Assembly: GCA_002070105.1 (NCBI GenBank)
Contig: MWCQ01000014.1
Location: forward strand, 1-64,000
DNA from: Firmicutes bacterium ADurb.Bin193
Lineage (GTDB): Bacteria > Bacillota > Clostridia > Monoglobales > Firm-18
DNA length: 64,000 nt
Reading direction: 5' to 3'
The notes beneath the pieces were generated by a model. It saw only the letters and a list, made by a program, of their open reading frames with translations. It made no database searches and had not been told where the DNA came from. Numbering within the stretch: position 1 is the first letter of the stretch; each line of letters starts with the position of its first letter. Shown in pieces: positions 13,044-58,912 of this stretch. Position numbers and translations under genes: made by a program.

Positions 13044-15818
13044 TTATCTGTCGCCCACACTGACCGAATCGCTCTCGGCAAGCGGAGCCATATCGGTTAT
13101 GCTGTCCCATAAAAATACTTTTACTTTATATCCGTCTTCGGGATCGGCTCTTAATGCAATGCTTTCCGGCAATACCGGGCTTTCTGTATTCGGAATCTCA
13201 ATATTGCTGCTTTTAATATTCAAAAGCTTGTTGTCGACGGTATACACAGCTATGATAAAACAGGCGTTTGCCGACCTTGATTTTATATTATTTATGGTAA
13301 CGGACAAATCAATATTTTCGGTAGCGTCGTTGTAGTCAAATGATGATATATTGATTCCAAAATCAAAATTATTTGTAATGGCTACAAATCGAATAGAGTT
13401 ATTATTTGCATAGACCTGGGCATCCGAGCCTTCATATCCGTATATAGTTAACTCGTCAGGGCAATCGTTAAACACACCTTCGCCAATATTTGTATCGCTG
13501 CCGAGGAAGGTTACCGAGGTAAGGTCGGTGCAGTTCTCAAATGTCCAGTTGCCGATATATGTAACGCTGTCCGGTATGGTTAGAAAGGTTAGACTGTAGC
13601 AATCCAAAAACGCATAAGAACCAATGCCTATAACACCGTCGGAGATAGTTACCGAATTAAGGTCTTCGCAGCCCATAAACGCGCCTTCGCCAATATTTGT
13701 AACACTGCCCGGTATGGTTACGGAGGTGAGCTTGTCGCAATTCGCAAACGCCCAACCGCCAATGACTATAACGCTATCGGGTATGGTTACCGAAGTGAGG
13801 TTGTAGCAACTGGAAAACAGACTGCTTCCGATTGATATAATACTGTCCGGAATGATTACCGAGTCAAGGCTGCTGCATTGGTAAAACGCTCCTTCACCGA
13901 TGACCATAACGCTGTTTGGGATGGTTACCGAGGTCATCCCGACGCAAGACGCAAATGCTCCTACGCCAATGTATGTAACGCTGTTCGGAATGGTTACCGA
14001 TGTCAGACCTTCGCAGTTTTCAAACGCATTTTGGCTGATGGTTGTAACGCTGTTCGGAATGGTTACCGAGGTCAGGCCGCGGCAATTGTAAAATGCGCTG
14101 ACGCCGATGCTTATAACACTATTCGGAATTATGTATGCGCCGCTTTTACCTACGGGAAATGTTATTAACACCTCTTTCGACTTGTCAAACAGTACGCCGT
14201 CCTGACTTGAGAATATCGGATTGTCGCCATGGACATTTATCTCGGTCAGGCTGCTGCAATATGAAAACATGTAATAGATGATATTTGTAATGCCGCTTGG
14301 AATAGTTAGTGAGGTCAGACTGTTGCATTCTTCAAATGCAGAATCGACAATGGTTGTAACGCTGTCCGGTATAATATATGCGCCGCTCTTACCTTCGGGA
14401 AATTTTATTAACATCTCCCCGTACTTGTCAAACAGTACGCCGTCCTGACTTGAATACTCCTCATTGTCGCCATGGACATTTATCTCGGTCAGACTGCTGC
14501 AATTTGTAAACACACTTTCGCCAATGTATGTAACGCTGTCCGGTATGGATATCGAGGTCAGGCCGCGGCAACAGAAAAACGCCCAAGCATCAATGTCTGT
14601 AACGCTGTTTGGTATGGTTACCGAGGTCAGGCTTCTGCAATTGTAAAATGCGCCGATGCCAATGTATGTAACGCTGTCCGGTATGGATATCGAGGTTAGA
14701 TTTATGCATTCTTCAAATGTATTATCGTTAATGGAATCAATGCTGTTTGGCATGGTTACCGAGGTCAGGCTGATGCAGTTATAAAATACGCTGTAGCCAA
14801 TGTATGTAACACTGTCCGGTATGGTTACCGAGGTCAGACTTTCACATCTGTAAAACGCTCCGTCACCAATGTATGTAACGCTGTTCGGTATGGTTACCGA
14901 AATCAGATTGCTGCAATCTTCAAACGCCCAATCTTCAATGCGTATAACGCTGTCAGGTATGGTTACCGAGGTCAGGCTGATGCATCTGTAAAATGCGCCG
15001 CCGCCAATAGCTATGACTGAAACTCCGTCGATAGTTTTCGGTATCATAACGATACTGTCATCCCCTAAGTATTCCGTTATCGTCTGTGTATCAGGGTCAA
15101 AATCAAAATCCGATTCGGGACTATACTCGCCGAGTGTTTTTGCTTGAACAACATTGGATATGCCTTCTCTTTCGCCGCCCGTTACAACAAGGCGGAACTT
15201 ATATTCCGTTTCCAATTCAAGGTCTTCTACCGTGGCAGTGGTAGAAGAGGCATCTAACAATTCGGTTGTTACGGCATTTTCCCATTCAATTCCGCCGTCG
15301 TACGAAATCTGCAAATCAACACTTGTTGCATTTTTTGGGCTTGGGAAGGAGAAAGTAACGCTGTGACTCCTAATTGCGGTTGCCCTAAAATTTGATATCG
15401 GCCCTGTTGCCAATACCGGATAGATATTCGTAACCCTAAAACCGTATTCGCTATATGAATAATCGCTTATAAGCCGTATCTTTACGGTTTTTCCGATAAC
15501 CGATTTTGTTTTTCCCGCAAGCTGCCTCCCGTGAAACGGACTGCCTGCTATATTGTTGTCGTTTTCATCCATTATGAAGATAAAATCATAGCCTTCTTCG
15601 GTTTCGGTATCTAAGGAAAATGTAATTTCCAATTCGTCGCAGTCCTCAGGGTGCGTATAAACCCATGTCGTATCCTCGTAGTCCGCATAAGGGTGCTCGG
15701 ATTGGAACTCGGACAAATCGGTTACAGTTACTTCGGTTGACGCAAAGGCTGTATCGGGAACTGCTATCAGGGTCAATAGAATTGTCACTAAAAGAGTAAA
15801 ACTTAATACTTTTTTCAC
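13044..15818 (-). CDS. BspA-like leucine-rich repeat surface protein
   Basis: A secreted protein of about 924 residues. After the signal peptide (VKKVLSFTLLVTILLTLIAVPDTAFA) come a CUB-like domain (WVYTHPEDCDELEITFSLD to KIRLISDYSYSEYGF), a fibronectin type III-like domain, and roughly 20 LRR_5/BspA repeats of about 23 residues (LTSVTIPNSVTYIGDGAFYRC). These are interrupted twice by a longer EINVHGDN...SSQDGVLFDK module. The C-terminal 110 residues (FDFGINISSFDYND to WDSITDMAPLAE) recur in two other genes here. Such proteins mediate adhesion or ligand binding. The GTG at 15818 follows AAGGAGG by 12 bases. No sortase or other anchor is visible. Confidence 0.9.
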   Translation of the reverse strand: MKKVLSFTLLVTILLTLIAVPDTAFASTEVTVTDLSEFQSEHPYADYEDTTWVYTHPEDCDELEITFSLDTETEEGYDFIFIMDENDNNIAGSPFHGRQLAGKTKSVIGKTVKIRLISDYSYSEYGFRVTNIYPVLATGPISNFRATAIRSHSVTFSFPSPKNATSVDLQISYDGGIEWENAVTTELLDASSTTATVEDLELETEYKFRLVVTGGEREGISNVVQAKTLGEYSPESDFDFDPDTQTITEYLGDDSIVMIPKTIDGVSVIAIGGGAFYRCISLTSVTIPDSVIRIEDWAFEDCSNLISVTIPNSVTYIGDGAFYRCESLTSVTIPDSVTYIGYSVFYNCISLTSVTMPNSIDSINDNTFEECINLTSISIPDSVTYIGIGAFYNCRSLTSVTIPNSVTDIDAWAFFCCRGLTSISIPDSVTYIGESVFTNCSSLTEINVHGDNEEYSSQDGVLFDKYGEMLIKFPEGKSGAYIIPDSVTTIVDSAFEECNSLTSLTIPSGITNIIYYMFSYCSSLTEINVHGDNPIFSSQDGVLFDKSKEVLITFPVGKSGAYIIPNSVISIGVSAFYNCRGLTSVTIPNSVTTISQNAFENCEGLTSVTIPNSVTYIGVGAFASCVGMTSVTIPNSVMVIGEGAFYQCSSLDSVIIPDSIISIGSSLFSSCYNLTSVTIPDSVIVIGGWAFANCDKLTSVTIPGSVTNIGEGAFMGCEDLNSVTISDGVIGIGSYAFLDCYSLTFLTIPDSVTYIGNWTFENCTDLTSVTFLGSDTNIGEGVFNDCPDELTIYGYEGSDAQVYANNNSIRFVAITNNFDFGINISSFDYNDATENIDLSVTINNIKSRSANACFIIAVYTVDNKLLNIKSSNIEIPNTESPVLPESIALRADPEDGYKVKVFLWDSITDMAPLAESDSVSVGDR
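13480..15010 (-). repeat. Tandem 69-bp LRR DNA repeats
   Basis: The LRR array is near-identical at DNA level. Phrases such as GTTACCGAGGTCAGGC and TATGTAACGCTGTCCGGTATGG recur in register about every 69 bases, with 138-base steps elsewhere. Such an array is prone to slippage and length variation. Confidence 0.8.
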
Positions 15819-15906
15819 TGTTTCAATGCCCTCCTTATCACTTTTGTATTTTTTATTACTATCCAAAAACAAACCTGATTTTTAAACCAAGAATTTCCTT
15901 GTGAAT

Positions 15907-39914: not shown

Positions 39915-39943
39915 ATTGTTTCATATAATTAAATGTGGTATAA
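39915..39943 (+). promoter_or_regulatory. Possible promoter using the repeat's TATAAT
   Basis: TTGTTT (39915-39920), 17 bases, TATAAT (39938-39943). The -10 is supplied by the left palindrome of the dispersed repeat, so insertion of the element may have created a promoter towards ddl. Confidence 0.4.
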
Positions 39944-40068
39944 TAACCGCGGGCGGTTATTATACGCTCCGCGAAGAATTTATTGCGCCGCCGAAATTTT
40001 CCTCGCGAAAACCGCTCGTAAACGGCGATGCGCAGTTATACCATAATTCGCTTGCTTTTATGGCATAA
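39937..40068 (+). repeat. Two-hairpin dispersed repeat, copy A
   Basis: A 132-base element. The left palindrome GGTATAATAACCGC/GCGGTTATTATAC, a GC-rich middle with GCGCCGCCGA and AACGGCGATGCGCA, and the right palindrome TTATACCATAA/TTATGGCATAA. An inverted copy lies at 55077-55196. The 102-residue reading frame across it is spurious. Confidence 0.75.
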
Positions 40069-40124
40069 CAATCGGGATATAGATGATTATTATGCCGAAT
40101 ATATATCTGCATTAAAGGAGGCTT

Positions 40125-41186
40125 ATGATGTCCAAACAGAAGGTTTGCGTTATTTTCGGCGGGAACTCATCGGAGCATGAGGTTTCAAGGGTTTCGGCGC
40201 GGAATGTAATAAACAATCTCGATAAAAACAAGTATGAGGTTTATCCCCTCGGAATAACAAAGGAAGGGCAATGGCTTCTATACAGCGGCGATATAAGTAA
40301 ACTTGACAACGGCGAATGGGAAAAAAGCAATGTACATAAAGCGATAATTTCACCCGATTCGGGCGACAAGTGTATTTTGGTATTTAAGGGCAATACGGTT
40401 GAAAAAATAAACATAGATGTTGCGTTTTTGATACTCCATGGTCGCAACGGCGAGGACGGAACCGTCCAGGGGCTTCTTCAGCTTGCGGGTATACCCTATA
40501 CGGGGTCGGGGGTGCTGTCCTCTGCGCTTTGCATGGATAAGGCTTCGTCAAAGCTGATACTCGAGGCAAACGGCATACCTCAGGCAAGGTGGCTTGTTAT
40601 AAGGGAAAGTGATATGCAAAACCCCGCATTGGTTTTGGAGAGGGTTGAAAAAGCCTTTTCATACCCTGTTTTTGTAAAGCCGTCTGGCGCAGGCTCGTCA
40701 ATCGGCGCAGGGCGCGTTTTGTCGCCCGAGGGTCTTATTCCCGCGCTCGAAGATGCGCTGAGGTACGACACCAAGGCTTTGGTTGAGGAAAACATAAATG
40801 CCCGCGAAATAGAGTGCGGAATTATAGGTAACGACAACCCGCGCATAGCCCTTTTGGGCGAGGTTGTAACGGACCACTCCTTCTACGATTTTGAGGCGAA
40901 GTATACGGAAGGGGCGGCAAGCTCCGTTATCCCCGCTCCGCTTAGCGCCGAAAAGACGGAGGAGATAAAGGAAATAGCCAGAAAGGCATATCTTACACTG
41001 GAATGTAAGGGTTTTGTCCGTATAGATTTCTTTGTGGAAAAGACAACCGAGAGGGTTTTTCTGAATGAGATTAATTCGCTTCCCGGCTGTACGGACAGCA
41101 GTATGTTCCCTGTTTTGTGGCAAAAGAGCGGGCTTACATTCACCGCATTGTTGGACGAAATCATATCCTACGCCATGGAGGGTTAA
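40125..41186 (+). CDS. ddl: D-alanine--D-alanine ligase
   Basis: ATP-grasp enzyme making D-Ala-D-Ala for peptidoglycan. 353 residues: [77 protein letters not shown] and the C-terminal [18 protein letters not shown] metal-binding segment. Starts ATGATG after AAGGAGG. The next gene is murI, so two steps of wall precursor synthesis lie together. Confidence 0.95.
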
Positions 41187-54285: not shown

Positions 54286-55056
54286 TTAAGCATTAAGCTG
54301 CATTATCGAAACCATACTACCCGTTTTCATATTGTCGCCGCGGTATGAATAAAAAAGATCCTTCCGGCAAAAGGTACAAATGCCGGATAATGTAAAATTA
54401 CTTTCCGTGACGCCGCAAGCCAAAACCTGATCTTTGCAAAGCGCCCAAAGGTCTATTCGGGGCTTTTCGCCTTGAATAACATATTTCGTATCAAAAACAT
54501 CGGCAACCTCCTGCCCGACCTCAAAGTGGCATACCCCGATGGAAGGGCCGAGGGCCGCTATGATATTATGGGGGTCACAGCCGTAATCAGCAATCATTTT
54601 ACCTACGGTTTTCCCCGCTATGTTTGCCGCCGTGCCCCGCCAGCCCGAGTGCGCAAGAGCAATCACCCTTTTTTTCGTATCAAGGAAGAAAAGAGGAACG
54701 CAGTCGGCGTGAAAGGTGCATATTGCAATATCGGGGTCGTCGGTTACAAAGGCGTCAACGCCCTCCAAACGCCGCCCCGCATCGGTTTTGTCGGCGGCTA
54801 ATACGATATCGCCGTGTACCTGCTTTGCCATAACAAGCTTGTCCGGATTTATGCCGACACAGCCGCATAAAAGCTCAAAATTTCTTTTGATGTTTTCGGG
54901 CGTATCCTTTCTTTCAAAGCCGAAGTTCATGGTTGCGGTTTCGCCCGTGCTCACTCCGCCGATTCGTGTGGAAAATGCGTGCCGAACCAGCCCGCTTTGC
55001 TCAAAAGACGGTATAGTAAGATATTCGATATTGTTCTTTCGGTTTATTGTAAACAT
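54286..55056 (-). CDS. pgeF: Purine nucleoside phosphorylase YfiH/PgeF (LACC1 family)
   Basis: A 256-residue protein of the DUF152/YfiH family, copper/zinc enzymes with purine nucleoside phosphorylase and adenosine deaminase activity in relatives; some are linked to peptidoglycan editing. Motifs: RHAFSTRIGGVS, LVMAKQVHGDIV, CTFHADCVPLFFLD and LAHSGWRGTAANIAG, whose His and Cys bind the metal. ATG at 55056; a reading extended to 55134 starts within the dispersed repeat and gives the spurious NGDAQLYHNSL. Confidence 0.93.
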   Translation of the reverse strand: MFTINRKNNIEYLTIPSFEQSGLVRHAFSTRIGGVSTGETATMNFGFERKDTPENIKRNFELLCGCVGINPDKLVMAKQVHGDIVLAADKTDAGRRLEGVDAFVTDDPDIAICTFHADCVPLFFLDTKKRVIALAHSGWRGTAANIAGKTVGKMIADYGCDPHNIIAALGPSIGVCHFEVGQEVADVFDTKYVIQGEKPRIDLWALCKDQVLACGVTESNFTLSGICTFCRKDLFYSYRGDNMKTGSMVSIMQLNA

Positions 55057-55076
55057 GGTATTCTCACTTTCTTTTA

Positions 55077-55196
55077 TTATACCATAAAAGCGAAGCGAAT
55101 TATGGTATAATTGCGCATCGCCGTTTCCGAGCATAGCGAGGAAAATCTCGGCGGCGCGATAAATTCCGTATAATAACCGCTTGCGGTTATTATACC
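55077..55196 (-). repeat. Two-hairpin dispersed repeat, copy B
   Basis: Inverted relative to copy A (39937-40068). The TTATACCATAA/TTATGGTATAA palindrome is perfect here, and the other end has GCGGTTATTATACC. It fills the gap between the spoIVFB-like stop and pgeF almost exactly. Confidence 0.75.
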
Positions 55197-55197
55197 A

Positions 55198-56055
55198 TTA
55201 TCGGTTGTCTAAATCAACCATTTTTGCAGCTTTAGTCCTAATCCCCATCTCGACAAGAAGCTCTATAAGACGTGTCTCCGTAAGGGTGCCGATGATGTCC
55301 ATATCGCTGTTTATTACATTTATAAGGTAATAACGGTTATAGCTTAAAAGTTTCAATGCCTTACCGGCGGGCTCGTCGGCGGAAATAGCTATAACCCCTG
55401 CCCTTTCCGCACAGCCTCTTGAAAGCTTTTCCCTGCTTTTTATTATTTCGTTCATCATAATATGAGCAGAGCTTCGCTGCTCCGCAACGGTGTTTACGAC
55501 CAAAAATGCGCCGATAAGTATCAGAGAAAAATTAAAACGGGTATAAAAAAGAAACGCGGCGCCGGCAAGCGAAACAACAACCGCGCAAACCCTTGTTATT
55601 TTAACCGTAAAATTAAATGCTTTAACATATCCCCACCGCTCTGTGAGGAAGGCTTTGAGAATACGCCCTCCGTCAAGCGGCAGGGCGGGAATGATGTTTA
55701 TCAGCGCAATCGAAAGATTGACCATAACAAAAAAGCTGTCGGTCATAAGCCTGTGGCACAAAAACGCCATTCCCGCACTGCAAAGAGGACCCGCCGCCGA
55801 AATAATAATCTCGTGGACTGGATTTTTAATATATGAGCCGCTTATCTTTATCGCCACGCCGAAGGGGAGTATTTCAACGGTGTCGAGCTTAACTCCGAGC
55901 GAAAGTGCCGCAGCGGCGTGGGCAAGCTCATGTATTATAACCATAATATACGCCACCGAAAGATAGTAAATAAAATCAAAAACAATGGCAAAAAACAAAA
56001 GGAGCAGGAAAGAGGGGTGTATTTCGACTTTTTTAAGTCTGATCGGTTTTAGCAT
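55198..56055 (-). CDS. spoIVFB: SpoIVFB-like M50 site-2 protease
   Basis: A membrane metalloprotease that, in Bacillus, cuts pro-sigma-K inside the membrane of the mother cell. 285 residues: zinc motif HELAHAAAALSLG in an early membrane segment, second motif NIIPALPLDGGRIL, several hydrophobic helices, and a C-terminal CBS-like region (IAISADEPAGKALKLLSYNRYYLINVINSDMDIIGTLTETRL). ATG at 56055 after GGAGGAAG. It overlaps the end of the upstream gene by 23 bases. It supports sporulation ability; the exact substrate is inferred. Confidence 0.88.
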   Translation of the reverse strand: MLKPIRLKKVEIHPSFLLLLFFAIVFDFIYYLSVAYIMVIIHELAHAAAALSLGVKLDTVEILPFGVAIKISGSYIKNPVHEIIISAAGPLCSAGMAFLCHRLMTDSFFVMVNLSIALINIIPALPLDGGRILKAFLTERWGYVKAFNFTVKITRVCAVVVSLAGAAFLFYTRFNFSLILIGAFLVVNTVAEQRSSAHIMMNEIIKSREKLSRGCAERAGVIAISADEPAGKALKLLSYNRYYLINVINSDMDIIGTLTETRLIELLVEMGIRTKAAKMVDLDNR

Positions 56056-58092: not shown

Positions 58093-58912
58093 ATGAGGAA
58101 AAAGGTAATAAGTCTTTCTTTGGCAATGATAATGTTGTTTACTCTGATAACCTTTGCGGATACGGTTTTTGATGAAAACAAAATGGGTATAACCGTACAA
58201 GCATCAGGGGGCAGCGCCGAATCGGATTTTGATTTTATTCCTTCAACAGGAAAGATAACGGGTTATTCGGGGAACGGCGGTATCGTTATGATTCCTCAAA
58301 CCATAGGCGGAGTTACTGTCACAACGATTGGAGAATATGCATTTTTTAGATGCAACAGCCTTATCTCGGTAACAATTCCGAACAGCGTTACAACGATTGA
58401 AGAAGGTGCGTTTTACAGTTGCGAAAATCTTACATCGGTAACCATTTTGAACAGTAAGTACTATAATCATTGGCGAGGAAGCATTTAAAAATTGCGATAA
58501 TTTAAACATTTACGGCTATGAGGACTCATGCGCCGAAACCTATGCGGATGATAATAATATTGACTTTATACACATTAATCCTGCCTATGACTTTCAAATT
58601 ATCATATCATCCGCAAAATACAACCCTGATACCAAAAATTTAGATTTATCTCTTATTATAAACAATTTTAAATTGCAGTCGAAAAGCTGCTGGCTTATCC
58701 TTTTTGTGCATACCGTTGATGAAAAGCTTTTGAAAATAACAAACAGCTATATTGAGCTTGACCAAATGCCGGGTGTGATGCTAACGCCGCAAATTAAGTT
58801 GTCCGCCGACCCTATAGGCGGATATTGGGTTAAAGCATTTTTGTGGGACGATATAAATAAAATGCGTCCGATTGCCGATATAGATGGTGTTGGTATGTGG
58901 TATTGGTATTAA
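58093..58912 (+). pseudogene. Frameshifted BspA-like LRR protein
   Basis: A short relative of the large LRR protein. The intact first part (58093-58488) has a signal peptide, SDFDFIPSTGKITGYSG and about three LRRs (LISVTIPNSVTTIEEGAFYSC). Near 58451-58456 the frame shifts by one base. The next frame continues without a gap as IIGEEAFKNCDNLNIYGYEDSCAETYADDNNIDFI and then the C-terminal domain (YDFQIIISSAKYNPDTKNLDLSLIINN to FLWDDINKMRPIADID) up to 58912. It is a pseudogene, a phase-variable gene or a sequencing error. Promoter and RBS (GGAG) are intact. Confidence 0.8.

Follow-up and report, generated by a model that had tools for sequence, protein, structure and literature searches.

A small hairpin repeat of Clostridia inserted in register at the -10 box of promoters

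Results

Two copies of a three-hairpin repeat

The window, that is the whole stretch of 64,000 nucleotides analysed here, contains two copies of a short repeat, A and B, located upstream of a D-alanine-D-alanine ligase gene and of a gene of the polyphenol-oxidoreductase-laccase family, respectively (Table 1). The first-pass annotation had described the copies as a pair of two-hairpin elements, and both were recovered at those places, matching each other with E = 5.9e-34 in a whole-genome BLAST search. The terminal palindromes and the GC-rich centre it had noticed are common to A and B when read from the sequence, as is the out-of-frame peptide NGDAQLYHNSL, which AACGGCGATGCGCARTTATACCATAATTCGCTT encodes in both. 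Both terminal hairpins hold, but the description as a two-hairpin element falls short, since the GC-rich centre forms a third hairpin, which is well supported and whose AT bulge is conserved. No inverted-repeat relation exists between the terminal palindromes; what the two ends of the element share is a direct repeat, TGGTATAATA ... TGGTATAATA.

Both copies sit in promoters, a point which the first-pass annotation had missed. The second -10 box of copy B lies about 20 nt upstream of the start codon of the next gene, the laccase-family gene, which starts at 55056; the longer frame listed for this gene (to 55134) enters copy B. Elsewhere in the window, ten 69-nt direct repeats (23-codon units) occupy 13519-14994 within a long frame (13044-15872, minus strand), and they also resemble 58217-58455.

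Table 1. Positions of the two copies, their promoter boxes and hairpins, and the genes downstream
Feature	Position	Strand	Basis
Copy A, type I	39938..40070	+	Covariance model, 125.6 bits; BLAST copies in genome
-35 box TTGTTT of copy A promoter, outside the element; 17-bp spacer to TATAAT	39916..39921	+	Sequence; 69-flank statistics
-10 box TATAAT, 5' end of copy A, outer arm of H1	39939..39944	+	
Hairpin H1 of copy A, GTATAATAACCGC-GG-GCGGTTATTATAC	39938..39965	+	
Core hairpin of copy A, with AT bulge	39985..40033	+	
Hairpin H2 of copy A; terminal -10 box decayed (GGCATAAC)	40036..40068	+	Sequence, alignment
D-alanine-D-alanine ligase gene downstream of copy A	40125..41186	+	Pfam PF01820, PF07478
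Copy B, type I	55075..55195	-	Covariance model, 136.4 bits
-35 box TTGATT of copy B promoter, outside the element; 17-bp spacer	55212..55217	-	Sequence; 69-flank statistics
-10 box TATAAT, 5' end of copy B	55189..55194	-	
Hairpin H1 of copy B, GTATAATAACCGC-AA-GCGGTTATTATAC	55168..55195	-	
Core hairpin of copy B	55113..55158	-	
Hairpin H2 of copy B	55077..55110	-	Sequence, alignment
Second -10 box TATAAT (in TATGGTATAATA), 3' end of copy B	55076..55081	-	
Polyphenol-oxidoreductase-laccase family gene downstream of copy B	54286..55056	-	Pfam PF02578

Distribution and arrays

A search of the genome and its relatives, which the first-pass annotation had proposed, returned about 18 copies in the genome itself and many in relatives; by covariance-model count, there are 18 in the former and 20 in G003, a genome of the same family. 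Element length is approximately 120-150 bp across the family. Within the order, 12 of 51 genomes carry relatives of the element; within the class, 28 of the 391 sampled genomes do, the named carriers being uncultured Clostridia such as UR.bin154, Oscillospiraceae HAN083 and the 'Lapin' bins. No match was obtained against phage and viral collections, and none of the Rfam family models matches the element.

Some copies are arranged head to tail (C1:269277-269666, C1:9730-9982 and C8:11514-11768); adjacent units have one TATGGTATAATA in common, with a single TATAATA per junction. The assemblies used break at such arrays. In the genome of the window, the end of contig G000:C1 (L080) and the start of G000:C2 (L081) both stop within near-identical tandem copies, and these contigs may be neighbours across an unresolved array. 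At L189, L192, L133 and L171:1297, the 3' flanks run on into part of a second H1, to an extent that varies, which gives the impression of a shortened tandem unit. In genus g48 (L171:8972-9210, L174, L179), other repeat families of about 100-230 bp abut the TATAATA of the element and themselves terminate in TATGGTATAATA. Possibly these, too, are elements that target promoters, with different interiors.

Promoter register

The position of the element relative to the -35 box was analysed in 69 5' flanks drawn from a limited number of genera, with redundant and tandem flanks excluded and TTG alone scored. A TTG lies 16-18 bp before the first TATAAT in 47 of these 69 flanks and at exactly 17 bp in 32, against 0-10 (typically about 5) at out-of-register offsets, counts in which common ancestry of a few flanks is possible beyond the 30-nt redundancy filter. 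In a separate genus, the -35 box is in register in 19 of 25 flanks, compared with 0-3 at clearly shifted offsets. The TATAAT at the 3' end of the element is preceded by a -35 box in none of 54 cases, and other TGnTATAAT words in the same loci in 44%. The -35 box lies in upstream sequence that varies between copies. The element sits, then, at the -10 box of sigma-A-type promoters while the -35 box remains outside, and the presence of this box in register identifies the target as a promoter, not merely AT-rich DNA.

At its 3' end, the element bears a second extended -10 box (TGnTATAAT), often shortly before the start of the downstream gene. A gene with a ribosome-binding site begins within 100 nt past the element, on the same strand, for 37 of 80 copies, as opposed to 9 of 80 in a mirror control. 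No description of small repeats inserting in the register of a promoter or a ribosome-binding site was found in the open-access literature.

Empty sites and recent movement

In genus g128, orthologous promoters lacking the element were identified for four copies of G187 and one of G403. An empty promoter is, for example, of the type TTGAAA-17-TGTTATAATATATGTG; in its filled counterpart, -35 box and spacer are unchanged and lead into TGTTATAATA-element-TATGTTATAATATATGTG. Promoters are intact where the element is missing from the orthologous site, and the -10 box is duplicated where it is present. TATAATA, the candidate for a target-site duplication, is present at both ends of the element, and the 3' one appears to be carried by the element. 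Relatives lack the element at sites L191 and L199 (g83) as well. The promoter orthologous to L191 contains TAAAAT, the type to which all four arms of the inserted element also conform. In genus g48, a copy of G078 is absent from G110, where the empty site may be either ancestral or the outcome of a deletion between direct repeats, and one G429 site retains an H1 scar. Movement has been recent, as evidenced by near-identical copies at different promoters of G187, four of which are 100% identical to a 125-base query (one across 124 bases) and a fifth 99%.

A sister form at ribosome-binding sites

A second form, type II, has the same core hairpin as the type I copies of the window and is placed between the Shine-Dalgarno sequence and the start codon. 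The Shine-Dalgarno sequence precedes the element at 20 of 21 sites; the element ends in GGAGATTATT, or nearly so, and is followed directly by an ATG. The frame that begins there has at least 60 codons at 20 of the 21 sites and 58 codons at the remaining one. Type II brings a new Shine-Dalgarno sequence of its own, the ribosome-binding site being within a hairpin. The inner arm of its H1 terminates in CCTCC, complementary to the Shine-Dalgarno sequence, and its 3' domain looks pseudoknotted when judged by eye. Orthologous sites without type II are ordinary ribosome-binding sites (e.g. AAGGAGCAAAACATTATG), and in two of five cases the 'empty' site has apparent remains of an older copy. The genome of the window holds one type II-like copy by sequence (L017:1410-1610, minus strand; G000:C7 around 87722-87849), with GGAGG, H1, CCTCC, the shared core and a different, pseudoknot-like 3' domain that stops immediately ahead of an ATG.

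Hairpin anatomy and covariation

The three hairpins can be written as GTATAATAAACGC-AA-GCGTTTATTATAC (H1), GCRCCGCCG-AAAT-TTTCC...GGAAA-CGGCG-AT-GYGC (core, with the AT bulge conserved) and ATTATACCATAA...TTATGGTATAAT (H2). H1 is perfect in 60 of 75 copies. Across H1 and the core, 99.1% of cells pair and 13 pairs feature double changes. The stem covariation whose absence the first-pass annotation would have counted against the element is present: 86 cells are double-changed, compared with 16.6 in shuffles, a value reached by none of 500 shuffles, and all slid registers of the pairing fail. The arms of each hairpin covary, variant -10 boxes included, and when inner arms were swapped between copies of one genome, upper-stem pairing decreased from 0.99 to 0.80 (maximum 0.87 in 1000 trials).

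G-U (G-T) pairs are rare, amounting to 3 of 644 cells in one count and about 2% in another. Their rarity points to hairpins of DNA rather than RNA, and template-switch correction would yield the same pattern. Mismatches in H1 are about equally G-T (20) and A-C (16). In the core, G-T mismatches exceed A-C (16 and 4), an excess which suggests that the core may act as a single folded strand.

Discussion

Relation to known mobile repeats

As a kind, the element is a small non-autonomous bacterial repeat close to REP, BOX and RUP elements and to MITEs, and membership in the MITE, REP/RAYT and IS200/IS605 groups fails on the defining features tested. The first-pass annotation had suggested a MITE- or REP-like repeat. 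This stands as far as a dispersed, non-coding, hairpin-rich repeat is concerned, given about 18 copies, relatives, covarying stems and empty sites, but terminal inverted repeats, a matching transposase and the REP foot tetranucleotide were not found.

In architecture, the element resembles IS200/IS605 elements, in which an internal guide pairs with the target motif and insertion occurs 3' of a short motif (PMC6006769). Like those of the IS608 and ISDra2 type, the element has hairpins near both ends without terminal inverted repeats, and its inner arms, which are complementary to the -10 box and covary with it, are candidate guides. On the other hand, these guides span at least 7 bases instead of 4, a hairpin lies between guide and target, the right-end motif equals the target motif, the target is a promoter -10 box, and many hosts lack a Y1 transposase. 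With REP/REPIN sequences mobilised by RAYT (TnpA-REP) the element shares short palindromic intergenic repeats in many copies with no gene of their own; it differs in having three hairpins and the promoter register, in lacking a GTAG/GTGG foot tetranucleotide (alignment of 31 copies), and in that RAYT is absent or flanked by other repeats.

Were the element a non-autonomous member of either group and dependent on a Y1 transposase acting in trans, such hairpin ends, the lack of terminal inverted repeats and guide-like pairing with the target would be expected. This explanation is nevertheless unlikely, because the geometry differs in the hairpin interposed between guide and target, and because no Y1_Tnp match was obtained in 9 of 19 element-bearing genomes (G187, G403, G003, G078, G110, G226, G410, G021 and G032; the assemblies are incomplete, with G187 and G403 at 99% completeness). 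The repeats flanking the RAYT pair of the genome of the window are, moreover, unrelated to the element. This pair (L079, G000:C6:66423-68243) consists of two adjacent Y1/RAYT transposase genes amid AAGAACCGTCCC and GGGGACGGGGGTTTGACA repeats, and it resembles the TIRYT-type subclass 2.1 (PMC6006769). These RAYTs were rejected as partners of the element in view of their flanks and of the many hosts missing Y1.

An ordinary MITE, understood as an internal deletion derivative of a DDE insertion sequence with a preference for AT-rich, TATAAT-like targets, would account for the size, the AT-rich ends, the numerous copies and the empty sites. It is a rather improbable origin, since each end has its own hairpin and the ends are direct rather than inverted repeats, and since the in-register -35 box marks the promoter itself as the target. 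Furthermore, no full-length relative with the same ends was present among the matches in ten g128 genomes. The matching transposase which the first-pass annotation had suggested looking for was not encountered there either, these genomes containing only full, truncated or contig-edge copies, and partial hits initially considered as halves of an autonomous element were dismissed as contig edges or truncated copies.

BOX, RUP and SPRITE of Streptococcus pneumoniae, thought to be non-autonomous parasites, are similarly small interspersed Firmicutes repeats with strong secondary structure (PMC3049150). Their published descriptions, on which the comparison is based, set them apart: terminal inverted repeats and target-site duplications are given for BOX and RUP (PMC3049150), and no promoter-register insertion is described for any of the three. 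The Correia elements of Neisseria are short as well, and their insertions can create functional promoters (as cited in PMC3049150). By description, they are delimited by 26-bp inverted repeats, whereas the present element targets an existing promoter and duplicates its -10 box.

A retroelement, whose RNA would begin at a host promoter and be reverse-copied into DNA at another, would remain transcribed through insertion at the transcription start, and could also leave the variable partial repeats past the 3' end; it is very improbable, given that the carriers of the freshest copies (G187, G403, G427 and G429) have no RVT_1 reverse transcriptase and that the part of the H1 outer arm carried by the element is located before the point at which the transcript would be expected to start. 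Least credible is an immobile regulatory RNA leader (riboswitch-like or attenuator) fixed before certain genes, which would fit the structure, the position upstream of genes in the same orientation and the ribosome-binding site inside the type II hairpin, yet is contradicted by the empty sites; against it, too, are the differences between sister species in the presence of the element, the identical copies within one genome, tandem arrays, unrelated downstream genes and the lack of an Rfam match. A secondary regulatory effect of the element may nonetheless exist. The small structured RNA proposed in the first-pass annotation is not favoured, as the H1 outer arm is the -10 box, which would not be transcribed from that promoter, and G-U pairs are rare.

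A proposed mode of movement

Copies A and B probably belong to a non-autonomous mobile family of Clostridia which targets expression signals and moves as folded single-stranded DNA with guide arms. Its mobility is documented by the empty sites, and from the structure of the copies we infer how it would move. The inner arms of the end hairpins would serve as guides, the left arm pairing with the -10 box of the target and the right arm with the terminal -10 box of the element itself. Strand transfer would take place just 3' of TATAATA or, for type II, immediately ahead of the start codon, and a circle closed at a single TATAATA would account for the tandem arrays. The mobilising enzyme is presumably encoded elsewhere and acts in trans; no autonomous copy and no such enzyme was found, Y1 transposases being missing from 9 of the 19 element-bearing genomes searched and reverse transcriptases from all four g128 genomes searched, with incomplete assemblies weakening every enzyme absence. 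As a replacement signal is brought along, insertion would do hardly any harm to the host gene, and the presence of copies before essential genes would be accounted for.

The base preceding TATAAT varies by site at the left end, while the 3' copy keeps that of the element (for example, TGA or TGC at the left and TGT at the right). The outer left arm is probably target sequence as far as the -10 box, and the remainder of H1 would be carried by the element, since it is the same in near-identical copies at different targets. A target duplication comprising the whole H1 outer arm was rejected, as near-identical G187 copies share the arm at different targets. At L195 and L204 the outer -10 box does not match the inner arms, so guide pairing would not be strict. 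Perfect arms could also arise by template-switching hairpin correction, without any guide function.

More tentatively, and with somewhat less than even confidence, the family can be conceived as a new class of mobile element, in which a single-strand enzyme would be directed by base-pairing to -10 boxes or ribosome-binding sites and the replacement signal would prevent silencing.

Conclusions

As far as could be found, no other bacterial element has been shown to enter promoters in exact register, and this one would be the first. Yeast Ty elements aim at polymerase start sites, and the promoter targeting described here loosely recalls them. The element points to a further mobilising enzyme, and one may ask whether promoters, once melted, offer it single-stranded sites of entry; short promoter-directed guides could also become a tool. 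The family is a clear example of a parasite which, by rebuilding the signal it has broken, may spare its host.
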